A DNA stretch of 64,000 bases, from contig CM069876.1 in NCBI GenBank assembly GCA_036172665.1, positions 5,518,001 to 5,582,000 on the forward strand, read 5' to 3'. The translations under genes were made by a program, and so were the position numbers. The notes under the pieces are model-generated. The model made no database searches and was not told the DNA's origin. It worked only from the letters and a program-made list of their open reading frames with translations. This DNA is from Prosopocoilus inquinatus (taxonomy: Eukaryota > Arthropoda > Insecta > Coleoptera > Lucanidae). This document shows, piece by piece, positions 11,290 to 64,000 of the stretch (positions are counted from its first letter, which is position 1; every line of letters starts with the position of its first letter).

Positions 11290-12425
11290 AAATTATTTTT
11301 GTTAGTATCGAAGTAGCGCTACTTTTATCGTTAATTACAACTAACTGACAAAAAGACTCATTGTATTATTAGGAAAAAAGTAAGTTATTTCCTCGGAAAA
11401 ATATAGTTGTCTGAAGAAAAAGGTGTATCTCAAAATTCTGTTGAAATTGCATTATTGCCAACTTAGGGAAAAAGTCGTTAAATCTAGGGATAAATTCAAA
11501 CAAAAGAGAAAAAGGTAAAAATTGCGAAAACTCATTAAAATATAAAGAATTTCACAAATTCTTGGGAACAAAAGATAATGGCTACATTTTCAGACAATAA
11601 GACGGAAAAAGGTTTAACAATCATAAACAAAAAAAAAATATTTTTATGATCCAGAAATGCGATAGAAAAATTAAAATTTACAAAGAAATTACGATAATTT
11701 TATTAAAAATTTTGCAATGTGAGGTCAAAAAGCGATCGTAGGATGTCGCTCTTTTATCTGTTCATTAATAATTTTATTTGTTTTTTGTAAAATTGGAAGC
11801 AATTTTAAAAAAACGAAAAAAAATTTGACAATCGAGAAAACCATTACAAATTTTAAAAAAATCTGACTAAAGTAAGAAAACAAATGACGATTATACACAT
11901 AGAAGAAAATAACTCAAAACTAATTGTAAATTTAAAATTAAAAAAAAAAAACTAATAATAAAGAACATTCAAACAAATGACAATCACAAAAAAAATCAAA
12001 AAGAGATGGAAATGTTTGAATTTCAAACTTAAAAAAACAATAATTTATAAAAAAAAGACGATCACGTCAAATCCAAGAAAAAAACTAGTACAAATAATTT
12101 TTTTTTTAATCTAATCGAAGTGCTACTACCTTCTTCTATTCAATTATAATTTTTCATTTCAGTTTTCTTATTTTTTCTCGGGATAATATTGTATAATATT
12201 GTAATTTGTAACTTCAAAATCGATTTTTTTCTTTAAGAAAGATACGAACTTCGAAATTTGATGAGTTGGCAATACTGCTTCGGATTGCTGCAAAGCGCAA
12301 GATTAGGTTTTTCAAGATCTTTATTTCTTTTGTTTTAACAGTTAATTGCAGGAAAAAATTATAAGTAAATTTATCTGTTTAGGTATGTTAATAAATAAAT
12401 TTATATTGTTTTTTCTTTGTAATCG
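11290..12425. other. A-rich intergenic DNA with a retrozyme-like fragment
   Basis: Long A-runs and no gene. One piece at about 11714-11764 (GAGGTCAAAAAGCGATCG, then AGGATGTCGCT, then TTTATCTGTTC) matches the segment preceding the hammerhead in the repeat arrays of CECR2 introns 3 and 4. No ribozyme core follows here, so this is a truncated solo fragment. Confidence 0.5.
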
Positions 12426-19423: not shown

Positions 19424-19738
19424 CATAATAACAAATAGATCAAAGCTGTTGTGAAATTTCTGTAAATTAAATATTGTATTGATTTCTTACAAAAATTCAC
19501 GACGAAATGTAAATAAAAAATCAAACTGTAAGAGCTCAAAATAGAGCGATTTTTTACACGTAATCATTAATGTCTTACAAACTCTTAAATAAATCTTCTG
19601 ATATGTTTGGTTATTACTTGTCCTGTATAGCCAAAAATAATTTTATAAAATACAGCCGACGGAGTTGCAGCTCAGCTCGTTTGAACTTCTTTTCTTTAGA
19701 CGGTAGAGAAGACCGCGGCACTAGGTGGACACCTGTAT

Positions 19739-24681: not shown

Positions 24682-26100
24682 GTCACTTAACACACTACAA
24701 AATAAAATTCTCAATCCACGATTACAGTCAGTCTGTGTTTTACACAGGTAAAATTCAGACGAATCTATTATTAATTAATTTAATTTAATTAATTAGTATT
24801 CACACATGTTGTAAAATTCAGAGGAGTCTATTATTAATTCGGGGAATCTATTAAAAAGTTCAAGGCTTAAGTAGTTAGGAGAATTTCACAATTTCCATAA
24901 ATGGTGTTTCACTGTTTCCTAAAAATTTAAATAACCATTAAAAAAACTAATTAACAGAAAAATAAAGGAAGTTCTGATCTGTGACCTATTTGCTCTGTGC
25001 AAAATCAACGTAAAACTGAAACTGAAATTACAAGTCGATACAAGATACAAGTCGTACAACAAAACGTGAAATTTAATTCATAGGTTTTCACACCCATTTC
25101 GAAAATACCTCAAAGACAATATAAAAATTTACCACATCTTTATACCTATCTTCGTAATGCGCATTGTTTTACAATCAAATAAGAGCAGTTGCAGTTTAAC
25201 AATAAATTAATTTGTTAATTTATTATATAGGCTTATTTCACTTTTACTATAATTTTTGCTTGCATATTTGTTCCACTTGACCCTAATAATAAAACATTTT
25301 CAGTGATAACCAAAAACTGCTGTAAATGTTTAACTTCCGAGCTGCTAAAAATTATTACTTGACTTCACGGATACTTTATGATTATTTTTTGTATAGGATA
25401 CTAATAGTATTTTTGTTTCATTTCAGTGTGTTTTTGTGTTGCATCGTGCCTTGTGACTTATAAAGGTAATTTTTCATTTCCCTTATCTTTAAATGTATGA
25501 ATTAAATTGAATTTCTTGTTTTAGTAATGTGCAGTGTTGTGACTGGCGGTTGGAGTTGAATCCAGGCGAACGGCAAGTAGAACGGCACGCTTCGATGAAA
25601 GGTAGGGTAAGTATTACGAATAAATCTTTTCGGTCAATTTCGTTTATTTCTATATAATTTCAGTTCCACGTCGAATTCCTGATTGGGTTGCAGTGCGGTG
25701 AGTACATTTGATTTTTTTTTTTTTAGTTTCGTATTTTATATTTCAGCAGCTTAATGTGACAGTGTAAATCTTGTGCAGTGTTGTGATTTTAGCAGGAAAG
25801 TATAAATGACATTTTGCCAATAGGTAAGCTGGTATGTAAAGTATTATGAATAAGTCTCTTCTTGATCGTTATTCTTTTACTTCTGCATAATTCTGTTTCG
25901 GAAAGTCTGGACTTGAATTTCGTAATTGTTGCAACAAATCACCTGACTTGAATTTTCGATTGACAGTTTATTTGTAATCAATCCAAACAAGTTTTAAAAA
26001 TATAGAGATTTAAACAAATCTCTGTTTTTGAATCAAAACACGTCTTGATCACGAATTTGTGATAATTGAAATTAACCTCTGCCCACAATAACTTGTATAT
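24682..26100. other. Non-coding AT-rich DNA upstream of the Penelope-like 3' end
   Basis: Contains a locally duplicated motif, CAGTGTTGTGA followed by AAGTATTA(C/T)GAATAA(A/G)TC, near 25535-25630 and 25778-25855. The copies may be part of the element's terminal repeat or of an older repeat. No ORF or exon is recognisable. Confidence 0.4.
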
Positions 26101-26101
26101 C

Positions 26102-26144
26102 CGTAGACACGTATTTCGGCAGCTAAGTTGCCCTCTTCAGTACG
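26102..26144 (-). ncRNA. Hammerhead ribozyme motif of the Penelope-like element
   Basis: Minus strand: stem I CGTA (26141-26144) pairs with TACG (26102-26105). The core is CTGAAGA (26134-26140). Stem II pairs GGCA with TGCC around a 7-nt loop, followed by GAAA (26114-26117). Stem III is the near-palindrome ATACGTGT (one T-G pair), followed by C as the pre-cleavage base, giving the favoured GTC site. All invariant core positions are present. Confidence 0.72.
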
Positions 26145-26806
26145 CTACCAACTTAAAACACTAAAAAATGTCTAAAAATAACCTAGTCACACTGACAAAA
26201 TCATAAAAATGTTAAACCTAACAACAATCTAACCATCCTAAAAGATATATATGTCTAAATGTAAGTAAATATAAATTAATATGTAAAAATCTAAAATAAA
26301 TTAAATATATTATGTATAAATCGGGGAAAAAAAATTATGTGAACACCTAAAATTAACTGTTAGGAAACCTTATAAATAAGAGCTAATCAAACAACACGGA
26401 AATGCGGAAATAAATAGTCCAAAGACCCCGAAAAAACTTCTTATTCTAACGTATAAATAAGTACGTAATTCCCTGTTATTTGATACCTAAAAACCTAAAA
26501 ATCCTGAAAAATAAACTAAAATATATATTAGGTATAAATCGTCAAAAAACAACCTATAGATGAGAGCAAATCACACCCACACACCGCAAGTTAAGAGCAC
26601 TTTAGGAAAATTTTATCTCGGAGAGTTCTCTCCTTATGAAATATCCAGTGCAAATCCGCTTAGCTGTCTCTAACACCCCTTTATATTTGATTTAAGTAGC
26701 GACATCTAGCGGATGATTTCTGACATAGAGGTACGACATCTAGCGGCCAATTTTTGACTTAAGATATATATATCTAAATACGAACCATTAAATAACAACC
26801 TACAAA

Positions 26807-28479
26807 TTAGAGTAAATAAAATAATGCCGAATTAGGTATTGGTCCGTTGTCTGAATTCATTAAATTGTTTTTATTTTTCCGAATAAAAATACTTTCGTAA
26901 ACATTTAATTCCCTATTATTTGAAACTTCCTTAATGAGTTTTAAATTATCCTTAATAATACTACGTCCTGTATTGTAAATATGTTGTGCAACACTTGATT
27001 TCTCAAACCTATTATACCTGTAGTGACTTAAATGTTCTTTAAAACGTGTTAATATATTTCTTTTTGTTTGTCCAATATATTTACTAGTACATTCGTTACA
27101 CTTAATTTCATGAATTCCAGATTTCTGTTCAACATCAACTTTATCTTTCGGGTTTCCCAATATATTCTTTATGGTAATGTTAGTTGAAAAACCTAATCGT
27201 AAGTTTTGGGTTTTAAAAATATGTTTTAAACCTTTGGTGCAAAACGGATCGAAAGGCATTTTAACAAATTTTCCTAGAGATGAAGTTGCCGTTAAAGTGC
27301 TAGAATTTTGGACCTGTTTCCTATAGCTAATCTTCCTAATCACATTATCTACTATTTGGGGGGTATAACCGTTATGAACCGCAACATTTTTAATATAATT
27401 AAGTTCTTTATCATATCGGGGTTTAGTAAGTGGAAAAGAGAGTAATCTATTTACTAAAAAATTTAGAGCCGCGAGTTTGTGTTGTACAGAATGTTGAGAT
27501 TCATCAATTATAAACCGGCTTGAATTTGTATCTTTACGATAAATGTCGATTTCTAATTCATTTTTGCTGTTTCTAATTATACGAGTGTCTAAAAAGGGAA
27601 TCGCACTGTTTTCTTCTTTTTCGTATGTAAATTTAATACTTTCAAATTTTGAATTTAATTTTCCTGTAAAATCCTCCAAATCACACTTTTTGGTATCAAA
27701 AATAGCAAAAATGTCATCTACATAACGTACCAAATTCTTGGAAAATACTGATAATTATCTCTTACGTCATTTTCGAATTTACTCATAAATAAATTGGCCA
27801 AAAACGGTGACAAACAGTTACCCATGTTCAAAATACTCACCATTTATTCAAAACAATTCTGAGACATGCAAAGAGGTGTGAGCCTAACGTATTCCTCCAA
27901 TTTATCTTTATCTACATTATTAACTGTTAGTAGTTCCCGCAAATAAGTTAGTTTTTCAGGTATGGGCACACTAGGAAATAAGGATTGAACATCAAACGTG
28001 ACCATAATTTCCCCTTCTTGTAAAGAAATATTTTTAATCATATTTATAAACTCCATTGAGTTTTTTACCGATAATTTATCCCGAGGATTGGGAAGCGGAC
28101 TGAGCTCGATATTCAACCATTTGGAAAGAGAGTAAGTGGGTGAGTTTATACCGGAAACAATTGATCTCACCGATTTACCTGCCTTGTGTATTTTGGGAAG
28201 GACATACAATTTGGGTACATCAATCTTAAATTTATTCTGTTTAGTAATAAGATTGGGACATTCTTTAATCGTGTCTTTGACAGCTTTAATTAACTTTGGC
28301 AACGGGTTTCGGGGTAGTTTCTTGTAGGGACCATTATTTATTAAGTTGTTTACCCTTTCATAATAATCAGGTTTATCTAAAATCTTACCCTTATCAGCTT
28401 TTAAGTAGAAACAGTTTTTCTTTCTTAACCCTGCAATGATTTTATAATATTCATTATGATGTACAGTTTGAACCTGCAA
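26807..28479 (-). pseudogene. Penelope-like reverse transcriptase/GIY-YIG endonuclease ORF, frameshifted
   Basis: The protein would copy element RNA (reverse transcriptase) and nick the target (GIY-YIG nuclease). Frame 28479-27844 holds LPKIHKAGKSVRSIVSG and the motif-A-like VTFDVQSLFPSVP. After a stop at 27844 and a frame change, MGNCLSPFLANLFMSKFE (motif B) is readable at about 27830-27775. A further shift leads to VRYVDDIFAIF, with the catalytic YVDD, in the long frame 27733-26807. The C-terminal part contains the GIY-YIG nuclease core (GIHEIKCNECTSKYIGQT). At least two frameshifts plus the stop make it non-functional. An intact N-terminus is not visible. Confidence 0.88.
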
Positions 28480-28500
28480 GATAGTACACCTTTTATATTT

Positions 28501-29093
28501 CCAATCATAAACCAGCCGCAGCTTTGTGAGTTAAACAAACAAAAATACTCCGACAATAAATCATCTTAAGATATGCGCAGAGTCGTCGGCATTATAATTG
28601 CCTTAAGTGAAACTTTTACTTTTGTCGGCCCGGAATTTTTCGCGAACTGCATTTCACCATGTTTCGTGGGAATTAAATTGAATGTTTATTTTAATTAAGC
28701 GTCGCATCTAGGCTGGTCCTAAAATTTCTGTTACTTTGCCCCTAATGGCCAAATGTAAAATTGGGGAAAATACTTTAGCATTTTATGAAATCTTGGCACT
28801 TGGTGCTTCCCAAGCAATGCGTAGTAGGATGGCGTTCGTGGTCGTCTTTTACGTTTATAAAAAAAATTATAATTGCTTCTTAAATGCAAAAAAAATTAAC
28901 ATCACTTAATTTACTGGAACGGAAATTGAGAATCGATTAAATCAGCCCCCCCCCCTCCAAGCTTCATTCAGCACCAAAAATATACAACCAGGTTCAGTAG
29001 GGTGATACTTTAAGGGTTAAGGGTGTAAGCGCACCTTAATTACTTGTGGTGTGTGTGCGCCTCACTTTATACTGAGCTGAAGTTAAATAAGTT
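28501..29093. other. No gene recognised
   Basis: Single-copy-looking AT-rich DNA with a C8 run near 28947. No conserved frame and no clear transposon end. Confidence 0.4.
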
Positions 29094-31013: not shown

Positions 31014-31919
31014 ATTTTGGTCGACGTAGTTGCCGAGCATTTTTAGGTTATAACAAATAACTCGCAAAATGTGAAAAAATTAATAAATCTATTAACGTTA
31101 TGAGTAATTAAATCATAATTAATAATAATATTATTGTAAAAGATGCAAAATTATTCAGATTTTCAAAACTGACCAACTCACAACTTCAAATTAGACGAGC
31201 TATCTGTCCATCTGTCATGCTGACAATTCTTGCATCATTATTGCTCACTTCCTAGCCAAAAGATATTTATAACGTAATTTAATTTTGACGATAACCGCAA
31301 ACTAACTTTTCATAATATTGCATTATTATAAGCAAAAATGGCTGTATAACGTAACGGAAAAGGGTTGCCGCAAACTAACTATTAGCTTTTATAAAATTTT
31401 AAATTCTTGTTTGCTATAACCTAAAAATGTTCGGCAATTACGTCGGTTAAAATCGGCTGTGCACGCCTGTAAATTCCGTAAGGATTATTTCCTGATTGGC
31501 TCCTTTATTTTAAAAAATAGCGTTCGCAAATTAGTTATACGGAATAATTTTCCGTAACTCAACGTTACAGATTATAAGGAAAATTTTTTATAACGGAAAA
31601 CACACTACCGCAAACTCACTAATATCTTCATCTGAAGATTAAAATGCAGCATTCGCATCTCGCATTATTTACTATTATATCACATTACTTACTATTAAAT
31701 CGATTGTAATTATTTAGTGACTGTTAGTTAACGCGTATTCTCCCTATTCTATATCTCTGAACTATGCAGAATCTGCTTTTGTGACTATTGGCACTACTGA
31801 TTTCTAACGTCTTGCATTTGAAAATATAACCTAAAGAAACTGGTGATAAACGCCGATTTACTTTTTTTCAAATAAACTTCGATGAAATGATTCTCTAACT
31901 GGTTACCGAAGCGAAGAAA
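31014..31919. promoter_or_regulatory. Upstream region of the RNF26-like gene
   Basis: No ORF. The region between the MITE and the ATG at 31920 should hold the promoter and 5' UTR. I see no defined TATA or initiator motif that I would trust, so the label rests on position only. Confidence 0.3.
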
Positions 31920-32912
31920 ATGGTTGAAGTTCTAATTAGTTCATTGAGTGTTTTAGCCACCGTCGTACGTTACACTTTCCTGTTGAGTTACAAGACAGGC
32001 CAACTGATAATCGAAGCTTTATGCTATGTGGTGCAAATGATAAGTTTTGCCTGCAGTACTCTGCTCACATTGCTGACAATTATCTCTGAAGACTTTTACC
32101 TATTTCTAACCGACATAATACACCACATTGATGTCATCGCAAGCGGAATTTTTGATGTGATTGCCAGCGTTGCGAAGCTTATGTTCATCGTAATAGAAGC
32201 CCTAAAGTTTGGCATTTTAAATGTGTACAACATTGTAATAATTATTCCATCAATTATTGGTGCTGCAAGTTTGAAGGCATTATCAAGCATAACTTACTTG
32301 TTTTCAACTCTCAAACGTTTACTTCTTTTATTTGGTTCGGGAATATGGTTTACTCTGACTTTGTTTCCGCTCTTTATCATTTACTTGCTATCTCTGTGTG
32401 GATACTTCATGGCAAGCATTTTTAAAGAAATTGCCAGTGTGATACGGAATGGGATTACGCAAACGTATGAACTTGCATGCAATGTGCTTGACTTTGTGCT
32501 CGATGTGCCTTTAGAAGCCACAGCTGGACTTATTGTTGGATGTTGCATATTCTATGTCCTCTTAAAATGCCACCTGATCTTGTGCAGGGTTTTGGAAAAG
32601 ACGTTGCGGTTAGTTTCAAGATATTTAAACCTCAGAGTCCGTGATTTGAGACGTCACTTGCAAATAAGGAGACATATGCAGCGTGTAGGATCTCCTGAAT
32701 TGAGGGTGAGTGATGAACCAGGAACTTCCGGCAATAAAACATATGATAGTAGGTACTGCATTATATGCCAGGAACATTACAAGTGCATTTTAATGTTGCC
32801 CTGTAAACATGTTTGCCTGTGCAGTGAATGTGACAAGAAGCTCAGTTACATTGGCAATACCTGTCCGCTTTGTAGGTGTGAAGTTAAGAAAACTATGAAG
32901 GTTTTTGTGTAA
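31920..32912 (+). CDS. RNF26-like transmembrane RING-finger E3 ubiquitin ligase
   Basis: A single uninterrupted 330-codon frame. Residues 1 to about 230 are strongly hydrophobic, with about five predicted membrane spans (for example around 35-60, 85-110, 135-160 and 190-220). The last 52 residues form a C3HC4 RING: CIIC at about 280, then LPCKHVCLCSEC, then CPLC near 318. A multi-pass N-terminus followed by a C-terminal RING is the layout of RNF26, an ER-membrane ubiquitin ligase that organises endosomes and modulates STING in mammals. Those roles are carried over by family only. Human RNF26 is about 100 residues longer. The ATG follows GAAA, a reasonable insect start context, and a poly(A) signal lies 290 bp downstream. 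Alternatives are other membrane RING proteins of unknown role. Confidence 0.8.
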   Translation: MVEVLISSLSVLATVVRYTFLLSYKTGQLIIEALCYVVQMISFACSTLLTLLTIISEDFYLFLTDIIHHIDVIASGIFDVIASVAKLMFIVIEALKFGILNVYNIVIIIPSIIGAASLKALSSITYLFSTLKRLLLLFGSGIWFTLTLFPLFIIYLLSLCGYFMASIFKEIASVIRNGITQTYELACNVLDFVLDVPLEATAGLIVGCCIFYVLLKCHLILCRVLEKTLRLVSRYLNLRVRDLRRHLQIRRHMQRVGSPELRVSDEPGTSGNKTYDSRYCIICQEHYKCILMLPCKHVCLCSECDKKLSYIGNTCPLCRCEVKKTMKVFV

Positions 32913-39564: not shown

Positions 39565-42500
39565 GTGTGTTTACAGATCGTTTGATTATTTTACTTGCGC
39601 TCAGATTACGAATGCCCGCTGTTAATAACAACTCTGGCCTTCGTTTCTAGATATTCAATCATGGTGGGAGGTTCCCAGTATTGCACATTTTTGTTCGCTT
39701 TTTCGAACTGCTTTTAACCTTTTGGATTTTGATATCGAGGTATGTGCATTTTAACATTGTAATGTTAAATATGAAAAAAGAAAACTTGTATTCAAGGATC
39801 TTGAAGAAGCGCTCTTAACGGATGGAACCGAAGAGACCTCTTGGTTGCAGGAACTCATAGTGAGACTGTTAAGCGGTTGCTTACCCAATAATGAGATATC
39901 AACGTTTAATTATCAGATGTTCTTGAGACGACTGTTTCGTCAGAAATGTCAGGATCAGTATAACCCATTTAATACAGACATCGATTTTCAGTTGCTCCCG
40001 CTTCGAACTAAAGTCGATATATTACATGCCCTCTGTGACTTTCGTTTAGATGCGGACGACGTTCTTGATCAGTTGAAGAACCTCGAGTCTGACAGTCTTA
40101 GAGTTGAACCCCTCGGTTATGATGATAACCAATCGGCTTATTGGTACTTTTACGGCACGCGTCTTTACCGCGAAGATTTCAAGAACAAAAATAGCAAGAA
40201 GGAAAAATCCATCTGGCAGGTAATTTGCTTTACAGAGGAGGACTGGTTTCAATTGGCGAAGAAGTTCAAGAAGGCCACCTCGAAAACAGAGAAGCAGTTG
40301 TATAGAACTCTAACTGAGAATTTCCTGCCAGAATTGCCGAGATTATTCCGTGAAAAAGAACGTCTGGCAAGGAAACGGTTACTTGAGAATCAACCTCGAA
40401 GGACATCAAGTCGTATAAGAAAGCAGGTAAAGTGTAAACAATAATCCACACTTTCTCTTATGCATAATCACATACAGGTGATGGGTTCAATTTTTATCAC
40501 ACATTCTATTTTAATTTCAAAACCTAACGGCCATTTTCATAATCAGACTTTAAATTTAAAATTACTTTAACCTAAAAAAATACTAAGTACAAAGTTTTTT
40601 TAATGTCGAACCAGACAGAATATGATGGGAACACACTCAATGTTTCGCTATAGATTTATAGCTTCCTCGGGAAGCTATAAAGTAAATAAAAAAAAATACA
40701 TTTGTTTCCCTGTACTTAAAGTGACTTTAAATTAAAATTTCCTTAAAGGGCCGTTTTTATAATCAGACTTTAAATTTAAAGAGTATCGGCCATTTTCATA
40801 ATCAGACTTTAAGGAAGCTTTAATTTAAAGTCACTTTAAGTGTAGGGAAACAAATGTATTTTTTTAGGTTAAAAGAAATTTTAAATTTAAAGTCTGATTA
40901 TGAAAACGGCCCTATGATTATGAAAATGGTCCTTAGGGTCGATTTCATAACAGGATTTTAAATTTAAAGTTACTTTAATCTAAAAAAATACATTTGTTTC
41001 CCTACACTTAAAGTGACTTTAAATTAAAGCTTCCTTAAAGTCTGATTATGAAAACGGCCGTTATAGTCATAAGTATTTTTCTGCTGATAACGTTCAATTA
41101 TTTAAATACAGGAAGCATTAAAGAATTAAAAAATAAAAACTTTGCTTAGGTGTATCAAAATTCATTAAATATATACTGATTGTGTTAATTTTATTCAACA
41201 TTATTCTGTATTGAGTAGGTTAAATTTAAAGGTCTGTTGCTATGGTAACAACCAATCATAAAGCTTTTTGACTGGTTGTTACTTTAGCAACAGTCTGTTA
41301 AATTTAATGTCAATGTCAGGTCAAAAAGCGAGCGTAGGATGTCGCTGTTTTATCTGTTCGTTAAATTTAACAGATAAAACAGCGACATCCTATGATCGCT
41401 TTTTGACCTGACATTGCAGTAGGATAGACAAATTGAAGCGGATTTGCTCCTAATAAGTCCCCCCTGCAAGGCGGCCATTGAAAGTTTTAAAAAATTTTCT
41501 TGCAAATCGTTTTTGATTGCAGTGAAAACCTCAAGCAGCCTCTGTACAGCTGTTTCAGCCCTGTTTGGGGCTTCATCAGCAGAGACAAACAGGACTGAAA
41601 CAGCTGTACAGAGGCTGCTTGAGGTTTTCACTGCAATAAAAAACGATTTGCAACAAAATTTTTTAAATTTAATGCAGTGGGAATGTCGAGCTACGTCTCT
41701 GCTGAAGAAGCCCCAAGCAGGGCTGAAACAGCTGTCCAGAGGCTGCTCGAGGTTTTCACTGCAATCAAAAACGATTTGCACAAAATTTTTCTAAAAACTT
41801 TCATTATGCTTTGACAGCAAGGATGGCCGCCTTGCATGGGGGACTTATTAGGAGCAAATCCCGCTTCAATTTGTTAGTAAGATGTCGCTATTTTATTTGT
41901 TCGTTAAATTTAACATCGCAATTGCGAATAAATTGGACATGTCGTTTTTGTTTGCAGTGGAAATGTCGAGCTACGTCTCTGCTGAAGAAGCCCCAAGCAG
42001 GGCTGAAACAGCTGTCCAGAGGCTGCTCGAGGTTTTCACTGCAATCAAGAACGATTTGCACAAAATTTTTCTAAAATTTTCATTATGCTTTGACAGCAAG
42101 CATGGCCGCCTTGCATGGGGGACTTATTAGGAGCAAATCCCGCTTCAATTGGTCTATCCTACTGCAATGTCAGGTCAAAAAGCGATAGTAAGATGTCGCT
42201 ATTTTATCTGTTCATCACTCTTACATCGCAATTGCGAATAAATTGGACAAGTCGTTTTTGTTTGCAGTGGAAATGTCGAGCTACGTCTCTGCTGAAGAAG
42301 CCCCAAGCAGGGCTGAAACAGCTGTCCAGAGGCTGCTCGAGGTTTTCACTGCAATCAAGAACGATTTGCACAAAATTTTTGTTAAATTTAACGTTCTTTA
42401 TGATTGATTGTTACCATAGCAACAGACCTACGTTAAATTTAAAGGTTTGTTACCGTAGCAACAAACCATAAAGCTTTATGATTGGTTGTTACCAAAGGAA

Positions 42501-45500
42501 CAGATCTTTAAATTTAAAAATTTAAGTTTGTTCTTGTCCGATGAAAATTGTAAGTACAAAGTTTTTTTAATCTCAAACCGTACAGTAGCTATAAATCTAT
42601 AGCGAAACGTTGAGTGTGTTCCCTTCATTTTTCTGTTCGGTTTGAGATTAAAAAAACTTTGTACTTTAAATTTAATGAAAAATTTTTTAAATACAGAAAT
42701 ACAGAATAGCCTCTAATTTCTGACTTTTATGCCTTGTGCTGGACTCAAAATTAATCTCATCTACAGTTGAAAGCAAAAAAAGTAGACAAACCACAGTTTC
42801 CTGTAATCATTCTTTCTCAAAATGCCATTGATTAAAGACGGGTTCACAATTTTACGAAAGGTTTAAACTTGTTAATTTTGAAAGCTTTTAATTTTTTTAA
42901 ATGTTATCTGTGAAGTCGTCCTTAATCACCACTATTTTCAGAAAGAATGATTACAAGAAACTGTAGTTGGTCTACTTTTTTTTTGCCTCCGATTGTACAA
43001 TTTTTGTATACAGTGAAATCTCTGATAAGACACCAACCATCGCCAATTATCTGTCCGCCTGTAAGAAGTGTCCGCTTATTAGAGAGAATTTTATTAAAAG
43101 ATTCTATAGAAAAGTTCCATAAAATTGTCTGGTTACGAGTGGTGTCCATTTATCATAGATGTCCATAGTGAGAGGTTTCACTGTATTGTATATTTACTTT
43201 TGGAAAATATTTAGCTTCATTACACATACAAAAAAAAAATAATGATATGTATCTCTGTATTTGAATCTGTTTTGAAAAGATTTGTCTTCTTTTTATTTCA
43301 GGAGATAATCGCAGTAGAAGAAGAAAAATTTGAGGTACAAAAACAGATAGACATAGAAAAGGAAAAGCAGAAACAGGAGGAGGAAAAACGGAGAACCAAG
43401 AGGAAAGAAGCATATGAGCGCAGAACTAGATTACGTGAACAAAGCGAAGACAGACAGAGCGAACAGTCAAATGATCGGTATGAAATGGCTGGTGCAAAAA
43501 CGAGGGACAAAAAGGCAAAGGCCAGACAACGACAGAACTCTGAAAGTTCCACGAGCAGCAGAGGTTAGTCATTATATTTAATTTTTTGTTCGTATTAATT
43601 AATCTATCAGATTAATTGTATATTTAGTAATCAGGAATGATGCAATATGTGACATACGTTACATGTACCCCGCCTTCAGAAAAAAAAATCCTTATTAAAG
43701 TAACCATTTACAGTAGATGTATTATATAAATACATAGAAAAGAAATTTCCTTTCTATCTCTGATAGAAGGGGTGACCAGAAAAAAGCGCACAGGAGAAAA
43801 CCCCACATGAAAAATGCGCACAAGAAAAAAGCGCACAGAGAAAATTGCTCACACGGAAAAAAGTCCACATAGAAATTTGCGCACACAGAAAAATGCGCAC
43901 ACAGAAAAATGCGCACACAGAAAAAAGCGCACAGAGAAAATTGCTCACAGGGAAAAAAGCCCACACAGAAATTTGCGCACCCAGAAAAATACGCACATCG
44001 AAAAATGCGCACACAGAAAAATGCGCACATGGAAAATTGCTCACACGGAAAAAAGCCCACACAGAAATGTTCACACACAGAAAAATACCCGCACCGAAAA
44101 ATGCTCACATAGAAAAATGCTCACACACAAAAGTACGCACATGTGTATTATTTTCTCGTAGACAAAGTTTAATAATGCAGAGACGCCGTTTACGGGTCGT
44201 ACTACGACAAGTTATTAACCGGACTGACGTACAATTTTTAGAAAAATTTTTGTGCAAATCGTTTTTGATTGCAGTGAGAACCTCGAGCAGCCTCTGGACA
44301 GCTGTTTCAGCCCTGCTTGGGGCTTCTTCAGCAGAAACGTAGCTCGACATTCCCACTGCAGACCAAAAACGACTTGCCCAATTTATTCGCAAATGCGATG
44401 TAAGAATGATGAACATATAAAATAGCGACATCTTACTATCGTCTCTGCTGAAGAAGCCCCAAGCAGGGCTGAAACAGCTGTCCAGAGGCTGCTCGAGGTT
44501 CTCACTGCAATCAAAAACGATTTGCACAAAATTTTTCTAAAATCTTTCATTATGCTTTGATAGCAAGCATGGCCGCCTTGCATGGGGGACTCATTAGGAG
44601 CAAATCCCGCTTCAATTTGTCTATCCTACTGCAATGTTAGGTCAAAAAGCGATAGTAAGATGTCGCTATTTTATATGTACAATTTTTAAGTTCGAAACTT
44701 AATTGTATAAACTTTTGCAATAATATTACTAAATTTTTTCGTTAAAATTGGAACTAGTTCATATTTGTGGGCTTTTTTCCGTGTGAGCAATTTTCTCTGT
44801 GCGCTTTTTTCTTGTGCGCATTTTTCATTGTGCGTTTTTTTATGTGCGCATTTTTCATGGAATCGATAGAAGGTTGGTTGATCTACGTCAACGTGTTTGT
44901 ATAAAACAGAGATAGACAGGAAATATCTTTTCTGTGTATTTATATAATCCACCCTCTGTGATTTTCTTTTATAAACTTGGCGACACATAGATGGCGTTTA
45001 TAAAGTTCGATGAATTACCCCTAGCTTCACAAAAATTATTTAATCATTGATTAATCTAACAGCATGATTAAAGCCTGTGATTGTTTGGGTGAAACAATAT
45101 AATTGGTTGTTTCAAATCTATTGTTAACTTCGTTCAATGATGTTCCTTAATCAGAGAATTAAATTAATCGCTGGTTAACATTTTTTTTGTGAAACTCACT
45201 GTAAGGAGGGTAAAGTAAATACGCGGTAAACGGTTCCTTTCCTCTCCAAAAATTTGGACGAACGCTTGAAGGGCAACAAATAGGAAACTGAACTTTACTT
45301 TTTACTTTGTCGCTGTCACAGATCATTCCGATTATACATTTTAATAGAATTTTAACTTGTTTAAAATAATGTAGAATATTTCCGTAAAAGGAAATACCAC
45401 AAGAAATATTAATAAAAAAGGTACAGTGATGTACAGCATGTTTAAGTTTTGAAACCTATTTTTTAGATTTTAAAATGTCTCCATTCTCGTCTCTCATCAC

Positions 45501-51500: not shown

Positions 51501-54500
51501 TTCTTTTATAATCTAATCGAGAAGCTGAGTCTTTCTACAATTCTTTTTATTTTCTTCACTCACCACCGGTTTCCTCGTCTTAACGACATTTTCAAGTGTA
51601 AACTATAAATCGAAAATATACAGGGTGTTCTTTTACTGTGTGCAAATAAAAAAACCTCGGTATAAGTACACGAAATGCTACTTTCTGCGGGTATTTTTGG
51701 TGGCTGCCGTATCATAGCCAAAAAATTTCACGAACGCCCACCGATACCGCACTCGATCTTCTACGCAGCGTTTCGTAATAAAATAATCACTGATATCGTT
51801 TATTAATTATTTTATTTAAAATTTTAATTCACCGAGCGAAGTAATGTTTTACGATATCAACTATCGACGAATAAATCCGAAAATTTATGCACCAATTAGG
51901 CAAGCGTGTTAAAAATGTTCTTCCTTCACCCTTTACGTAAATAAACTTTTATTGCAATCTCGCTGTTAGCTATGAAAGTATTACTACTTACGGTCCTTGG
52001 AAACAAAGTAAATGTCAAATTTTTATAAGTCTATTAAAAATAATACGGAATGAGAAATTACAATTTGTTTGTACCTCGCTTTTAATTTGTTCGGCAATTA
52101 CGAACCGCAGCTTCTTGAATTGCATTAGATTTTAATTTAAAAATACTTAAACTTGTAATTACTTGCTGTGAAATTAATTTAAATTGTAAACGTTTTGACT
52201 GACCAGCTGATTGGAGCGGCTGATTTACGTCGTTCGTGCTCAAGATCAAGTGAAGTACTGACCCTGGCCTACTTCGGATTCGGGTCATAATTGAAGATGC
52301 GGTCGCGTTCCATTTTTGGCCATGCCAGCGGTTTTCAAACGGTTTAGTGAAAATCTCCTTTGCATTTTATCTCGAAAACTATTAAATTTTTGTTAAGAAC
52401 ATATGAGTTCAATCGTTGCCATTTATGGTGATATATTATAGGTTTAAATATTTGCACACAGTAAAAGAGCACCCTGTATTATAACTAATTATTACTAAAA
52501 GTATTGAATCTTTAAACCTACATCAATTCTTGTTAAGACGACGATACCGGTCGTGAGGAGAAAATAAAAATAATTGTAGAAAGACTCAGCTTTTCAGTTA
52601 AATTATAAATAAAACCTAGGAACAGAAATACAAGAATACAATAATATTGTTTTTTCTTTCGCTGAAACTGTAAAATTAAAAAAAAAGACTCAGCTTTTCA
52701 GTTAAATTATAAATAAAACCTAGGAACAGAAATACAAGAATACAATAATATTGTTTTTTCTTTCGCTGAAACTGTAAAATTAATTACATTTGTATGAGCA
52801 ATTAATGAATAGTTTTTGTTTTTTTATCACCACGTTTTCAATTCGGAAATTCTAAGATGGTATTATGTCATGTTGCTTTATTATTACAGAAAATTTACAG
52901 GTTTTTATTTATTTCTGCTAATATTTCAAATAATGTGGCAAATTAATTGAAACTCTTTTTTACACTTCGGAGTTTGGCGTAATTGGGCCACTTGTTGTAA
53001 AACGTTTGGCTATATTTTTTGAGAAAAATCTGGCAATCTCGATTCGAAGTTCTTTTAAGGACGTTGTCCTTGAACTTTCCTAACGTTTTTCAGTTGTTTA
53101 GAGTCGGATTAACAGTTTTCAAATTGTTTTCCGACAATAACATCTCCAAAAATTAATCCTTTGTCTTTTTTCATTTTCTTTGTTTTTTTTTTTTACTTAT
53201 TTCAGACTATTCTGTTTTCGAAAATACTAATAATAATGATTATAAATGTGTGTTTTACAAAACCTATAAATAATGCCTCTAAAACTATTGGACTATAGAG
53301 AATTCTGATCAAACTCACCTTGATATAAAAGGTAGGGTGTTTCCTTTAAAATAGAGAATTTGCACATATTGCAGTCAAATTGAGACACAACGTATATATC
53401 GGAATAATTTTATATTATGCGGAGCTTGAAACAATGAACCTTTTGTATTAAAAACAGTTTTTATATTTTCAACAGAAAAGGCGCATTTGAAAAAAAAATT
53501 GCATCGGATTTCACATCCGGTGTATCCTGTATTGGGTACCATCGTGTAATTGGTACATGTTTTCTAAATTAAGTCGTTTAATTAAATCCGGCTCTCACCA
53601 TGTAATTACTTAAAACATCAAAATGTACTATGGTGCTCACCAAAAACGATACGACTCGGCAATTTGCTGACCCTTGCGGCAATATACAGACACGAAGGCC
53701 TGAAACCGCTGTAAGAAGTAACTAACTGGTCGACTACGGTCAGGCCTGGAACCTACCGTCCGGATATAATCGTGTTTATTTTCGCCGAAAAATAAGAAAT
53801 ATTATGTACAGATTATTTAAGAATACTCATTACTGTTAGAATGTTATAACTGAACTTTGTAATGCTGCTCTTTCCGTAGGTATTTTGGTTTGTGCTTTAC
53901 TAGATCATTATTTTGCAACTTGTGTATTTTGAGTTTAATAAATTGAAAGCGTATTTTTTGCGGATTTTCTTTGAACCATGAATTCGTCATTTTTAAGAAT
54001 AAAAAAGAACACAAAATTAGCTCTTAAAAAAGCATATACATTTTGAAAATTAGTATATAAAATTGCAGAAAAATTTGAAAAAATTGACGAATGCATACAC
54101 GTGCGTGCAATAAGCGACTTCGTTTTATAATATTACACCGAATATCTCTGAAATTAACAAACAAGTTCTTATTTGTCTGAAAAACGAAATGCTTTATACT
54201 TCTAAAGAACTTTGAATAATTAAGATTGCATTTTGATATGATCATATCACATCGTATATCATATTGAAAATGATTCAATGATTTGCTGATGGTAAAATAT
54301 GTCACACATGTAATGATTGTAGTAGATTCTTGTCTAATGAATTTGTACACTTCTGCTATAAAGTTTTCGGAGTACGAGACATGCCACTGGCAGTAAGAAA
54401 TTTTATGCTTTGCAATTATGAACCTTATAGCCTTTACAACCGTACCTGCTACCCCGATAATAAAACCGGTCATCGCAAACGCAGCGATTTAACACAGATG

Positions 54501-57500
54501 CGAACTTATTCAACCAACTTGAATAATCTGCTAGAAAGACTTTCATTGTAGTTGGATGGTTAAGAAATTTAACAAAATTTATTTTCTAAATATTATAACA
54601 TGTGTAGTAAATAATGTGTGCATTATGAAATTAAAATTTCTGAAACTTTGGCAATTGAAATTAAGTAAGTCAATAAAATAAAATCTGTTATTTTTCGTTA
54701 ATTAAATTTAACTTTCTAGTTTCATTAAATACACATATGTTTTGCAACTAATTAATAGCTTTGTTGAGCAGAACTTCTTAGCATTTATATTATTATAATA
54801 AGAAACAAATTTAAATAATCTAGCTCATTCTATATATTTTTTCAAATACTCAAAAATCATTCACATATTTTCACAAAATAAATGTTATACGATTTAATCA
54901 TTTTCTCTTAACTTCTAGATTAATGAAAACTTGCCAAACTTTGTGGATGAACTTTTCAACTTATTTTACTGATGTCAGATTTGAGAAGAAACTAAAAAGA
55001 AGAATATTATTTTTTCCTCTGTGGCGTAGAATGAAATATGTATATTATTTTTAACGCAAGTATTGCAATTTTTAAGTATTACACATATCATTCTATATTC
55101 TAGGAGTTTAATACTATATTTGTTAAGTTTCCTAAATTTGTATGATTCTGAATAATTTTAATGAGTTAATTATTCGATCAACAAGTATCATCAGTAAACT
55201 TATTATTTAAATGAAATTAAGTTATTTTAAATTTACTTCACTGTAAATTCTTACAATATTATATGATACCGTATAAAAAAGAATAACATACACTGGAAAA
55301 AGTATTCAAGACTTTATTATTGAGAACAACGAAAAACTTATTACAAGTAAAAACAAAACTAAAGTAAAAATTAACAAAACAATAATTCACGTATATATTT
55401 CCAAAAATAGAAAAAATAATAACACTTATTTTTAGTAAAAACATTTTAACTGTTTCAAATGTCCTTCACATTTTAAATACTAATGCCAAACGATTATCAA
55501 ATTCTTTCATAGTATTTTTTTAAAAATTTCAGACATAATTCATGACATTCATAACTGACATTAACATCATATTTGTTTTATTGAAACTTGTTTGCATATT
55601 CTGCCATGCATTGACATGTTTTTTTTATAACTGAACCTGGGAATATTTACCTTTTATGTTTAGAGTTAATAAAATAAGTCACGGTATGTATAGATGCTTC
55701 ATTTTAGGATCCGCAGAAAAACATAACAGCATAAAAGTCATAGGTTTTTATACGTGATATCTCTTTATCACAAAGAACAAAAGGGTGTCATAAAACAGAG
55801 GTTCGGTAAAATGAAACATAATTTTTCTTGATGTCGAAAATATTTTACATGAATAGGTTTATTGACATGTGAATAAGACGTGTATGATAAAATTGAATTG
55901 AAAATATCAATATATTAACATTTATAAAATAAAGATGACGTGAAAAAATGTAAAATATAATGGAAATGCTTAAATAGCATAATAGAAACCGCTTAAATAG
56001 CGCCATCCTGCGATCGCTTCTGCTGACGAAGCCCCAAATAGGACTGAAACAGCTGTACAGAGGAACGGGACAAAATAACTAGAATCAAAATTGTGAGGTC
56101 TTCTATTTACTTAAAAATAAATAAAATCGAACATATGTCCTAATTGTTATTATTTTCTTAAAATTATGTGAGCTTTCCGTATGGCAAAGCTTGTCGGTGA
56201 GCTAATAAATCACCCTGTATTTCATGTTTACTAAAAATCTATTTATGTATTTCTCGTAATGAAAATTTTAGAATACACAGAAAAATATATACAAACTACA
56301 AACGAATAAAATTTTTGTGAAGTCAAACAAACCAGAAGTGTATAAAGGCAGAAATTTGGTATAATTATAATTTTTCAGATTAATTAACATCGTCGATCCT
56401 TTATAGCAATTTAACATTTATATGTCTTTATAATATGATCTGAAATCCTGTTATTTAACAATATAAAATATTCTAATTAAAAAAAAACATTTTTTGTTCA
56501 ATTTTTAAGTTAAAGCAAAAGAGAACAAACAAATTCGCCACCGCGTCCGCGTTCGCAACCGCGCGTCGCCTCAATAAATACTCGGAACCAAATACTGGCA
56601 ACGAAATTCAACAAACCATAAACATCTGCACCGGCCGGGGTTTAATAGGACCTAAGTAAACAACCCTCCTATCGGGGTGCGGAGAAAGTGTCTCTGTTCC
56701 TTAAGGTTCGAAATATATTAGTCCCGTTTCAATAAGGTTCAAATTCGAACGATTTTATTGCTTTTCATTTCGAAACTTTTAAGCATTAGTGTACAACAAA
56801 TTCTTTTTGATTTTCTAACATTTTTAAAATTGTACACTCGTTCAATTTTTACTGCCGCGTAGATTGATAGCTTTGTCAACAGTGAAAAATTAATAAAGTT
56901 GTCAACTTGTTAATATTTTCACCTTAGTGAAGCGACTAATAACGAAACGGTATACAATTGTGTTATTTTCATGTTTTATGAAAGATTGAATTGAATTTAT
57001 TATACGAATGTCTAAATAAAAAAGAAGTTGATACAAAAGATATACATTTTTTTAAATTAAATTGCTCATGATAAATTGTTTCGTTTAATTCGGTAACACG
57101 TTTTTCTTGATCCCTAACGTCACAAATTATTACACTTTTGCAATAAGAAATTTATTTAATCCAGTGTTAAAAATTAAAAAAATTATAACAATTATATAAA
57201 TAGTAAATCAGATAATTGGTAGTCAAAGCATGTAACAAATTATTAGTTGCCTGTAATAATATTTGTTTACGTGGCAATTATCTGTTTTTAGAGTGTAAGG
57301 AAAGAATTAATTTTTTTTTCTACAAATTAAAACAGATTGAATATTTAAGGCGATTTAGTTAATCCGTTCGGAGCGTTTGGTTCTCTATGTGTCTCACTCA
57401 TACGTGCACTAGGTTTCCATATGCTCTCTCTCACTGCTATACCTGTTGTGTTTCCAGCAAATTTATTTTCCAACACGAAATGAATTCGACGAATTCGTTT

Positions 57501-60500
57501 TACGATTACAAAGAAGCTTAAGTCTCCCGTGAGTAACCAATACTTCTTTAAAATAAAATATTTATTATAAATATTTCGAATTGACTGAAAATTAAGATTT
57601 ACACCTTTCTGTTTGAAGAATCAAACAAATTTTTTTAATAAGATGCTATTATTTTTAAGAAAAATATTATTTTTACTAAACACGGATTTCCTCCAGAAAT
57701 CCCAAACCGTTGTCGCAATCTTATTAAGTATTCCCGTCGCATTCAAAAGAATTACGCTTACGCAGGTAGCCTAATAATATTATTGCCGTATCAAGCTTTA
57801 AACGAAGCAATAAAATTACAGCGGACCTAATTCGAGTAACAATTTTAATGTCCGAGTTGGCTCCGCCCAGTGTTTATAAGGGTGCAGTTTGCTTGCAGGG
57901 ACATCGTTTTTTGTTGAGCATCATAGTACATGTTCCGTTTATTTAACGAGAAATATCGTACGCTTATAAACGCAAGTTTTTTTATGTTAAGATTTGCATG
58001 TTATACTTTTTACGACAAGTAACATTTGAATTTTTTTATACCCATTACAGTTTTCAAGCAATTTTATAGCTTTATTCCAACCACTCGAGAAACCGTACAT
58101 TGAACGATCAGGAGCATGCGCATTAAACAAAATGTGTGTCGTTTTGTTTATTGCGCATGCCGTGTTGTTTAATGCGCATGCTCGTGAACGCGCATGCGTT
58201 CAATGTAGGTTTTTCGAGGAGCAGTTGGAACGAAGCTAATGTTTCTTTTATAATTCTGGGCTCAATTAATCATCTGTACCTGCTACTCATTACAAACTCC
58301 TGAACATCTTGTAATAATGGATACTTTATGTTCCAGATCATAGTTCGATTTTTTCCAGCGGTAGTAATCGCACGTCGCACAGAAATAGTGCGTCTTCCGA
58401 TAGTAAAATGGGCCCGTCGGCGACCGGCGCGACCGGCACGCCCACCACGGTGGGAAGACAGACGAATAACTCTTTAGCTAGCGCCACCGGTCAAATAGTC
58501 ATTCAACCTGTCTCTAATCCGCATAGAAAAAAATTAAAAACATCACAAGTGTAAGTCGAAACGTTGGTAATGCGAAATACGATTGCGTTATCTTGTATAT
58601 ACAGGCGTGAGTCAGGCGAGCTTGAATTTTTGCATTACCGGGTTTTCCTTCTCTGTTTTGTTAACGTAGCTTAAATCGATGTCGATGTATGCATGTTTAC
58701 ATCCTTATACTCCTCCTCAAGTATTAATTATAAAAGTAGAGTTTTCTTTAATATGTCCAGAGAATTGTTTTATTGGTAGGTAGTTGAGGTAAATAAAATA
58801 CTCATTATGGAATTATGGCTTTTTTTAACTAACTGCACTGTTCCTTGTCCTCCAGTTCCCGTCTGTGTATTGATTGCTATTTACTTACTAACATGCTTGT
58901 TGGAAACTGTGTGGTTTTGTGACTCTGTGGGGTTTTGTTTTGTTTTTTCTTATAATTTCTTTTCCTGTTTGAAAATCATCGTTTCTTTATGTGTTTCTAG
59001 TTTCCGTCAAACGGATGAAGACTTACAGACAGGAATGCATAAGATTTTGGATTATGTTAAAAACCATGATGACGCTTGGCCTTTTGTTGATCCCGTCGAG
59101 GAAGAGTACGCCCCTAACTATTATTCTGTTATTCGTAAGCCGATGGATTTGCAGAGAATGGAAGAGCGACTTGATGCAGGACATTACAAGACGTTCACCC
59201 GTTTTCGTGCAGATTTCCAGCTAATTGTCGATAACTGCAGATTATACAATGGCGCCGATAATGGTTAGTGCGCCTTCACACTCGTTTAAGGCACTCGTAC
59301 TAACCTAATGACATCTCTTTCAGAGTACACAGAAATGGTGGATAGTTTGCTGAAAGTGTTCGAGAGGGCAACTGAAAGATGCTTAGACGAAATCACTTCC
59401 ACTGACGAAGAAATCGCGGTTGAATATCCGGATTTGGATAAAGACGCAGCCAAGACAAACAATAAACGGAAAAAAAGTGACTCGACGTCGAGCTCGAAAC
59501 GGAAACCAATGTTGGCAGCGCAGACGGACAAAAAAAGAGACGAATCCAACTCGGAAGATTTCTCGAGCAGAAAGAGCGATTCATCTGACGTGTTCGAATC
59601 CAACACGAAAACAAACGAGCACCTAAAGAGTAATAAAAAGCAAAACAAAAACAAAAGGCAGAACAGGAAGAATTCCAAATCGGTAACGAAGAGGCATTCG
59701 AAACAATCTCCTTCTTTGCCCAGCCCAGAGCGAAGCCGAAGCAGAAGTATCACTCACAGCCCGAGCTTAGATGACAGATGGAGTAACTCCCCACCTCCGT
59801 CTTGGTCACCCTCCTCTTCCGATGAACGGTTTGATTTCTCCCCCAAAAAGAATGCCAAATGTACTGTGAGTGATGAAGATAACACTAACAAATCAAAAGT
59901 GAAGGTACAAGATAAGTGGAAAGAAATCTACGAAGAGGAAGTGGAGCAAAAAGACAAGGAAAAAGAACGTTCAAAATCACCCCCCAAGCACAAAGATAAA
60001 CACAATAAGCTGAGGGAAACCATCGAGAAGTTGAAGGCAAAAAGTGAAATCTCTAATAAACTGAAAGAGAAAGAATCCGACTTCGACAGGATGCGTGATT
60101 CATCCACCGACAATAATAAAATCGCCAGGAAACAAAACTGCAAAAACAAATCGAAGCAGAAACAAAAGAAAATTAAAAAAAGTGATTTGGATTTGGAAGA
60201 CGGAAACAGCACGATGGACAGTGTTCAGTCAGACGTTAAAAAACAGAATAAAAATTCTCACGCAAAGAACGCAGCGATCGAAGCTCTGGCTTTAGCGACA
60301 GAGCAAACCCTCAAAGACATCAATAAGTGGTTGGATGATACACCGAAATTTTCAGAGTTCAGTTCTGCTAGTAATTCTCCTTCGCACTTCTCAAGCCTAG
60401 ATGATTTCGATTCGATCGGCGGCAAACCAGACCAGGATTTTCGAAAAAAATTGGAGAAAACTATTCCGAGAAAGGATGGAAAGGACATTAAAAAGCGTCC

Positions 60501-62803: not shown

Positions 62804-64000
62804 GTAAGTTTCAATTAAATATTACTTTTTCTTTTCGGTGCTTCAAGAGCTACATTATGAAATTTAAATGAGTCATTTGGGTGTCATCTGGAATTTTATT
62901 TTGTTGGGTTGGTGGTAACATACACTGCTAGATTTGTTCAAATATCAAATTACAAATATTAACCTAACTCCAAGTTATACATGTTTGAAACTACCTTTAT
63001 TTTTTAGCATCCCAAATTACAAAAATATAATTAAAACACTTTATAAGCTCACAAAATACATAATTAGAGACATAATCTCTAAACTGACAATTGTTTGAAA
63101 TTATTTTAAGCGTCAACCAATTTCACCAACCGCCATCAACAAAACAAAAAATCCCCATGCTACATTACAAAATAACGCCGATTTTAAGATTTTTTTCATG
63201 CCTAAGCACCAAAATAGGTAAATACTACAAAATACACGTTTCATAAGACATTTTGGCGCACTTGTCCATTTAGAAAACTCGTCCTCTACTCCTTTTTTAA
63301 AAGTGAATGCGTGCGCTAAAATCACGTCCTATGAAACTTGTTTTTTAATATACCGGCTGTTTCAAATTGGGTGTGCACTGAAGGGATCTCCTAAACCGTA
63401 AGAGATACAAATTCGGTTAAATAGAAGAAAAGTTGCACGAATCAATGCCTAATTCGTATCCATTAAGAGAATAATTTTTTTCTTATTCTTGAGATATGAA
63501 TGAAAATGTGAAAAAAACGACTGTCTTTTTCTCTCTGTATCTCTTTTATTATACTTAATTTTGAAATTCTGATTTAACTTTATACAGGCACTTTTTGATT
63601 CTGCTTCGAATAGAGGTAGCAGAATTGAAGTCAAACGTTTCGTCTTTCCACGACCATCATCAGTTTCGATTTTTTAAATACAACTTATGTTATTTTATTA
63701 TTCTATTCGATAGCATTTTTTCTCCTGTTTACAATGATATATCACACTTAATAGTTGATATTAATCTGAAGCTTAAATAATACAGATTTTTATGTGAAAA
63801 TTTTATTTAATACATAATTTCAAATTTTTAGTTCATTTTCTTAGGTATAGAGTAAATTATAATAAAGTATTTAAAATTTTTCTGTATCGTTATTTTAATA
63901 ATACACTGCACTTACAAAAATGAATTTTTACCGAAAAATATCTAGTGGTTCTAATATAACTTGCTAGATCAGTATCTCAGCTTTAGTACAGGAATGAAAA
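62804..64000 (+). other. Start of CECR2 intron 7
   Basis: It begins with the donor GTAAGT. AT-rich, with no further coding exon visible before the window ends. A weak inverted pair (AAAATACACGTTTCATAAGA near 63230 against ACGTCCTATGAAACTTG near 63325) may mark a MITE. Confidence 0.5.

Follow-up and report, generated by a model that had tools for sequence, protein, structure and literature searches.

Head-to-head insertions of a hammerhead retrozyme family in the genome of the beetle Prosopocoilus inquinatus

We have analyzed 64,000 nucleotides from the genome of Prosopocoilus inquinatus (assembly GCA_036172665.1, contig CM069876.1, positions 5,518,001 to 5,582,000; this whole stretch is the window, and its own numbering is used below) in which a first-pass annotation, made from the letters alone, had described a retrozyme-like array of hammerhead ribozymes. 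Judged by its sequence, the family to which this array belongs is a new member of the metazoan retrozymes without long terminal repeats (non-LTR retrozymes), here resident in a beetle genome. We regard it as probable that this non-coding family spreads by hammerhead cleavage of its RNA, formation of a circle of about 311 nt, priming from two sides by the machinery of Penelope-like elements (PLEs), and insertion in a head-to-head arrangement.

The 311-nt family and the anatomy of its insertions

A search of the beetle's own genome (649.6 Mb in 173 contigs) with the window array as probe gave at least 248 matches, drawn from the best 40 scored of 6444 candidates. Twenty loci, and then 19 more, were taken with their flanks, all of them from among the best matches to the window array rather than at random. 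In the first 20 loci neighbouring hammerheads on the same strand of an array lie 308-313 nt apart, once 622 nt and never near 280 nt, and up to six hammerheads stand in tandem (L018). When only spacings of 305-316 nt were taken, with the duplicate locus L028 included, there were 36 units of 308-313 nt, 21 of them exactly 311 nt long. The family thus has the tandem, non-coding units of roughly 170-400 nt with a type I hammerhead by which non-LTR retrozymes are recognized. None of the insertion maps has an LTR-like layout, a result for LTRs alone, as no search was aimed at a primer binding site or polypurine tract. An open frame of the unit gave no match as a protein query, and a unit of about 311 nt is too short to hold a reverse transcriptase (RT) and a GIY-YIG domain, hence it is not itself a PLE. 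The dispersed tandem units, together with the target-site duplications described below, support the retrozyme family that the first-pass annotation had proposed; its further statement that the family is undescribed agrees with a literature search of open-licence papers, which gave no report of it, although the class is already known (PMC7229834).

Clusters of family sequence were mapped on the circular unit, counting as position 1 the first base after the cut, and the removal of six of the 50 clusters (four cut by the edge of a locus and the two duplicates L028 and L055) left 44 complete insertions. In these, 72 of 74 outward-facing 3' ends lie in one of two short intervals, 37 at site A (57-79) and 35 at site B (194-208), and the 14 5' ends are dispersed from unit 47 to 270. 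The clustering had been seen in the first set of loci and the window and was noted as a prediction before the second set was analyzed; in this second set (19 insertions, one mirror duplicate removed) 35 of 36 outward 3' ends are at A or B. Both outer ends are such 3' ends in 28/44 insertions, which is the layout of PLE-type insertions. Site B lies at the 3' foot of a predicted 15-bp hairpin (156-195), and site A on a weak predicted AU hairpin. Exact repeats of 9 bp or longer flank 30 of the 44 insertions, compared with 4 of 316 mismatched pairs of left and right flanks, and repeats of at least 12 bp enclose 20, compared with 0/316. These 30 repeats are 9-14 bp long (22 of them 11-13 bp) with an AT content of 67-100%, and so exceed the 4 bp expected as a minimum for target duplications of non-LTR retrozymes. 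The hammerheads could be passengers in a satellite DNA that grew by unequal crossing-over or by rolling-circle DNA replication, a reading that would account for tandem 311-bp units and for arrays such as that of L018; we nevertheless consider it very improbable, given that the loci are short and dispersed, mostly have a target repeat of their own (30/44), and share the same two endpoints.

The arms of opposite orientation meet in 35 head-to-head junctions, of which only those of the mirror copies L051 and L055 coincide; 24 overlap by 1-6 nt, and the junction of L019 can be placed only to within a 136-nt palindrome. Arms exceed 311 nt in 41 of 65 cases, the longest measuring 1683 nt (arms run to up to 5.4 turns of the unit); the arm and junction counts include the duplicate L055, and the ranking of loci favoured long arms. 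These features bear on a reading of the element as a foldback or MITE-like (miniature inverted-repeat) DNA transposon with chance hammerheads, whose termini would be the palindromes and a 29-bp inverted repeat seen in the copy at 44.4 kb. Long inverted repeats, and the presence of hammerheads inside other repeat elements of the window, speak for such a transposon, but we find it hardly credible: the inner junctions vary by copy, the outer ends are two positions of an RNA unit, the arms reach 5.4 turns, and the duplications flank the whole insert. The 29-bp repeat was rejected as a transposon end, being a product of the head-to-head junction. As a separate observation, B-primed arms frequently stop at unit 265-279, just beyond the hammerhead core (7/27: the window copies W1 and W2, L040, L045, L048, L049, and L052), possibly through a stall or at a template end.

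The window array and its hammerheads

The window holds six intact hammerheads and two degenerate copies. A strict topological scan (CTGANGA, stem II of at least 3 bp, GAA, stem III of at least 2 bp, a non-G site, and stem I of at least 4 bp) found 6 sites in the 64 kb, compared with 0.32 on average, and never more than 1, in 60 first-order Markov sequences. The four cores claimed in the first pass are all present (+41702, +41982, +42292, and 41553-41579 on the minus strand), and two further intact hammerheads had been missed (core +44448, and 44305-44331 on the minus strand). By strict scan and alignment, the three direct copies occupy 41695..41743, 41975..42023, and 42285..42333 on the plus strand, with predicted cuts after 41736, 42016, and 42326, and their 49-nt sequences match exactly, as had been stated; the inverted copy, found in the same way, lies at 41538..41586 on the minus strand and has a GUA site. 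The two additional copies, placed by alignment, are at 44290..44338 (minus) and 44441..44489 (plus). All six have the type I layout, with the core CUGANGA / GAA, three stems with intact pairing, and a non-G site, here C or A. The degenerate copies, at 17520-17564(-) and 56019-56063(+), have a mismatch in stem II, and with these included the nine fixed core positions are invariant over the 8 window copies. The earlier description of the hammerheads as canonical is correct for boxes and pairings but not for the full canonical form: stem II begins with an A-U pair where G-C is the Rfam consensus, the Rfam scores of those window copies that were scored fall below the cut-off, and stem III ACAGCTGT is a palindrome, which can close by about 2 bp within one molecule and by 8 bp between two. 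Variable columns in tolerant positions were considered as proof of selection on the hammerhead and rejected (p 0.09), as were Rfam miRNA matches, which are long hairpins, all below their own gathering scores. The hammerhead pattern had 0 exact matches in viral contigs and 0 in prokaryote contigs.

The first four hammerheads had been read as one tandem array of three direct units and one inverted unit. The units exist, but the single array is not quite borne out: the AT-rich sequence TTAAATTTAA splits it into pieces, and the inverted unit is an arm of a head-to-head insertion. The whole cluster (W1) is enclosed by a 12-bp target repeat, TGTTAAATTTAA, read from the sequence at 41296..41307 and 42380..42391; the flank analysis gave a repeat of 5 nt here, the alignment having run into the repeat, and the 12-bp match is not among the 30 counted above. 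Unit mapping gives, from left to right, piece a (41311..41359, plus strand; unit 149-197, 5'-truncated and ending at site B), piece b, piece c (41673..41903, plus; unit 247 to ~197, with part of its interior deleted), and piece d (41914..42379, plus; from unit 207 through two hammerheads to ~60 at site A), with TTAAATTTAA between them at 41361..41370, 41663..41672, and 41904..41913. Piece b, flanked by two TTAAATTTAA copies, is a head-to-head insertion from B to A, in which a minus arm (41369..41586; unit 196 at site B back to ~270) that holds the inverted hammerhead meets a plus arm (41586..41670; unit ~288 to 62 at site A). Of the 16 occurrences of TTAAATTTAA in the window, 13 are at 40550-42675, and several belong to other local repeats. 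Pieces a to d are best read as separate insertions nested into one AT-rich site, and the simplest reading of their origin is repeated insertion into a site that is itself copied by each insertion. Of the two unit lengths once proposed, about 310 nt matches the spacing in the family, but 280 nt is a chimera, without counterpart in the 20 loci, that arises where the deletion-bearing piece c meets piece d; an array of four hammerheads with units of 280 and 310 nt was rejected. Around the cluster, 41220-41307 and 42392-42517 form a small palindromic element (GGTCTGTTGCTATGGTAACAACC) bounded by TTAAATTTAA, into which retrozymes have inserted here. L047, judged by eye, has an insertion at this very sequence, in a small hairpin element that looks like this one.

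A second insertion (W2) lies between two copies of the target repeat GTACAATTTTTA identified by flank analysis (44229..44240 and 44677..44688). According to unit mapping it is composed of a minus arm (44233..44441; unit 63 back to 168) and a plus arm (44440..44681; unit 269 to 199), and it sits within a foldback element (43700-44960) with inverted arrays of a 16-bp repeat. A solo fragment (W3; 11713..11765, plus strand, unit 148-200, 5'-truncated) has an 11-bp flanking repeat, ATAATTTTATT. Other repeats of the window also contain hammerhead-like sequences. Two mutually inverted copies of a ~2.5-kb element (16787-19426 and 54341-56796), ~98% identical over two pieces and with TGTACA on both sides, each carry one degenerate hammerhead, with an upstream junction that by eye is like the head-to-head junction at 44.4 kb; an empty site corresponding to the 54-kb copy is present at ~23093. 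A second hairpin element, at 200-380, 40577-40672, and 42519-42673, has a long outer stem and a tip resembling a minimal hammerhead that goes unrecognised by Rfam; the minus strand of its copy at 200-380 reads CTGACGA, a 6-bp stem II, and GAAAC.

Penelope-like elements and a proposed cycle

The window also contains a PLE (26061..28530, minus strand), recognized by domain search, homologues, and genomic copies, with broken RT and GIY-YIG frames and a boundary at 28530 that is not a mapped 5' end. The matches of this PLE to GIY-YIG and RT are weak and do not reach the Pfam cut-offs; both domains are found in many of its homologues, including a number from beetles. A minimal hammerhead-like motif (26100-26146; 16.3 bits) lies 80 nt from its 3' end. 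The genome search for further copies covered the best 40 scored of 3330 candidates, and among the copies listed the 3' end is mostly at query 837-840. Eight copies were chosen for being head-to-head (L062-L068 were picked for listed inverted pairs), so that no rate of head-to-head copies follows. Their 3' ends face outward and have two alternative stops, one per end in 7/8, and a tail of ~22-38 nt is present at exactly one end in 7/8; the eighth copy has the tail at both ends, one side being a PLE tandem junction. Flanking repeats of 9-16 bp occur in 5/8, whereas 0/42 mismatched flank pairs reached 9 bp in the control on seven copies, and for the 12-bp repeat of the PLE at L018 as good a match turned up in 10 of 2852 random window pairs. 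At L018, L063, and L066 a PLE copy has a retrozyme within it, and at L066 and L068 PLE ends border on retrozyme sequence. The sequence CTATTTTA, common to the PLE tail end and site B, was considered as an evolved mimic and rejected, as 202 of 2000 shuffles score as high.

A PLE protein has been reported to cut AT-rich DNA on both strands, with copying that starts at two adjacent internal sites of the RNA and treats the strands alike (PMC11167929). PLEs are also described with head-to-head inverted pseudo-LTRs (pLTRs), 8-10-bp duplications, and an optional 31-bp tail, a form that was explained in 2013 by self-priming on an antisense template (PMC3846280); our own reading is that it may arise by priming from both DNA ends. 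On their layout, the retrozyme insertions look like the PLE reaction run on a small circle.

The cycle that we propose would begin with read-through transcription, here as part of the pre-mRNA of the host gene dikar for sense copies. The hammerheads would then cleave, for the most part probably as a double hammerhead in which two units join through the palindromic ACAGCUGU, and the unit of ~311 nt would be ligated into a circle; from transcription to circle these steps draw on structure prediction and published relatives. The insertion anatomy, which is read directly in the sequence, suggests the remainder, from target cut to joining. A PLE enzyme would make two cuts ~12 bp apart, one in each strand of an AT-rich target, each DNA end would prime reverse transcription at one internal RNA site, A 57-79 or B 194-208, synthesis may go several times round the circle, and the two cDNAs would be joined head-to-head, the stagger becoming the target duplication. 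The reading favoured here, that PLE machinery would prime from both target strands on RNA that is circular or multimeric, draws on the fixed ends, the flanking repeats, the head-to-head arms, and the likeness of the PLE copies. That the retrozyme is instead moved by an enzyme of the LINE (long interspersed element) type, by the ordinary twin priming known from L1 inversions, appears rather improbable to us, even if target repeats, 5' truncation, and inversions are LINE features too. In L1 twin priming one end is a fixed 3' end and the other a variable internal one, and this counts against a LINE enzyme here, where both outer ends tend to fixed positions at two sites. Nor do the printed insertion junctions have a regular poly(A) tail, and the examined PLE copies share their layout with the retrozyme insertions; it should be noted that twin-primed L1s are described as inverted, truncated, and flanked by target duplications (PMC2837659).

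Several observations weigh against the proposed cycle, and the first concern the ribozyme. The gathering score of the Rfam model RF00163 (Hammerhead_1) is 34 bits, and the scored window copies stay below it, at 25.8 bits (42286-42332), 22.2 bits (the inverted copy), and 25.0 bits (56017-56063); nothing in an Rfam search of the whole window reaches it. The first-pass annotation had set a score below threshold for all copies as refuting its proposal, and this is literally the outcome in the window. We think that the rule is too strict, because seven places in the genome pass the cut-off, the best with 42.6 bits, compared with 0/14 control genomes. These seven are sister families plus one diverged copy of the family, L011, which has a G at the cleavage site and should therefore not cut; two of them, L013 and L014, are identical across the 700 bases compared. 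The sister hammerhead families at L009, L010, L012, L013, and L015 score above the cut-off, some of them with a G-C first pair in stem II. In favour of the hammerhead, an alignment of 10 variants, of which seven were found by a hammerhead model so that the test leans towards structure, has 93.3% of its stem cells paired (a level seen in 0/500 shuffles), with a covariation score likewise matched by 0/500 and 14 cells altered on both sides (equalled in 1/500); the 10.1-11.1 pair is A-U three times and G-C three times. Two of the five covariation measures, pairs with changes on both sides and further pair types, are not above shuffles (211 and 453 of 500).

In isolation, the 50-nt hammerhead is predicted to prefer an inactive fold (-20.6 vs -14.6 kcal/mol), and most invertebrate type I hammerheads are reviewed as cutting well as monomers (PMC7761336). 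Two copies together are predicted to fold exactly as a double hammerhead (-45.1), which is also the unconstrained best predicted fold of the RNA 41673-42100 (-157.7) and the best for consensus pieces of 462 and 441 nt. With 41914-42389 and a 490-nt consensus dimer, the double hammerhead costs ~7 kcal/mol more than the best fold and less than two single hammerheads, and it is absent from the best fold of a 517-nt consensus piece; the outcome thus varies because it depends on the piece of RNA folded. Amphibian hammerheads are reported to act as dimers (PMC7229834), the same is proposed for PLE hammerheads (PMC7761336), and cleavage here would probably be mainly between two units, via the palindrome. 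In favour of the cycle, when folded as circles, window stretches of 280 and 310 nt have predicted folds of -93.0 and -113.1 kcal/mol (z -5.6 and -7.0 vs 60 shuffles each), and the family consensus one of -113.0 kcal/mol.

With regard to the insertions, 14 of the 44 are without an exact repeat of at least 9 bp and 14/44 have one 5' end. Site A pairs with site B in 23 of 28 inserts (permutation p 0.00015), an excess that was rejected as a clean test, since the probe used to rank loci by similarity ended at A, which biases the sample towards A ends, long arms, and A/B pairs. Among incidental copies, four with outward 3' ends on both sides combine a B end with ends at 70, 82, 58, and 49, of which 82 and 49 are outside the A range; sister-family matches and edge-cut pieces that end elsewhere (e.g., 6, 7, 10, 22, 44, 51) were left uncounted. 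The start sites of PLEs and retrozymes have no significant sequence in common. Arms longer than the unit could also be obtained if the same insertion reaction used multimeric linear RNA from existing arrays as its template, with circles as by-products. This alternative, unlikely in our view but by no means far-fetched, is helped by the finding that the turns of a single arm differ from one another (median identity 97.5%) and that 11/28 inserts share no variant between their arms. Variants are shared in 158/600 comparisons of opposite arms (60 of the 158 from L022 alone), 221/1089 of turns within an arm, and 5179/111649 of different loci, so that sharing across arms is about that within an arm and more than five times that between loci; similar sharing across arms and turns is what one small template predicts, and relatives are described as accumulating circles (PMC7229834).

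Animal retrozymes in general could be parasites of PLEs, with the PLE enzyme gripping one RNA circle at two start sites, the two cut target ends priming at different ones and both copying round that circle, and the head-to-head product being the usual outcome. We offer this tentatively and lean slightly towards doubt, the incidental copies with two ends outside the A range having lowered its odds. If true, it would tie the retrozyme to an autonomous partner, and the inverted pLTRs and tail of PLEs would be explained by the same two-site reaction without an antisense template.

Genomic setting and relation to known systems

On sequence evidence the DNA is animal and its host is a beetle. For the open frame at 59290-62868 the best matches are dikar/CECR2 bromodomain proteins of beetles (55% identity with Trypoxylus, 52% with Tribolium). 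The Tribolium dikar protein aligns to the window at 39632-40426, 43398-43562, 58450-58551, and 59002-62769, and these blocks place the hammerhead array in a dikar/CECR2 intron (~40426 to ~43302), the three direct hammerheads being in the sense direction relative to the gene; the second hammerhead pair (44.2-44.7 kb) is in the following intron. A 337-aa frame at 31899-32909 has a RING finger at its C-terminus and several hydrophobic stretches.

How animal retrozymes move is an open question, to which the insertion anatomy offers a clue; it predicts two start positions, duplications of ~12 bp, and head-to-head arms. PLEs have been proposed as partners of retrozymes on the grounds of co-existence, of type I hammerheads present in both, and of tandem copies (PMC7229834), and our search of open-licence papers gave no paper on a beetle retrozyme and none on such an insertion anatomy for retrozymes. 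The beetle family resembles the metazoan non-LTR retrozymes of coral, mussel, and axolotl in its type I hammerhead, tandem non-coding units of 170-400 nt, GC content below 50%, self-paired predicted circle, target duplications above 4 bp, and PLEs in the same genome (PMC7229834). It differs in being a new sequence family in a beetle host and, from those retrozymes as that paper describes them, in its double-primed head-to-head insertions with two start sites; the word "inverted" occurs 0 times in the paper's main text.

Hammerhead satellites of newt and axolotl, and pDo500 of the cave cricket, likewise hold type I hammerheads in tandem repeats (PMC7229834, PMC2837043). The amphibian ones have a similarly weak stem III, double hammerheads are reported for axolotl and proposed for the cricket, and pDo500 shows compensatory changes at 10.1-11.1, as here. 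Compared by description rather than by alignment, these satellites differ in unit length, and in the dimer proposed for the cricket it is stems I and II, rather than stem III, that pair across the two molecules (PMC2837043). With PLEs the family shares head-to-head inserts, AT-rich targets, and short duplications, published as 8-10 bp for PLEs and measured at 9-16 bp in 5/8 of the PLE copies here (PMC3846280, PMC11167929); for PLEs minimal hammerheads are reported, as is an optional ~31-bp tail at one end (PMC3846280). The difference is one of content, in that PLEs encode RT and GIY-YIG whereas the beetle element is a non-coding unit of ~311 nt.

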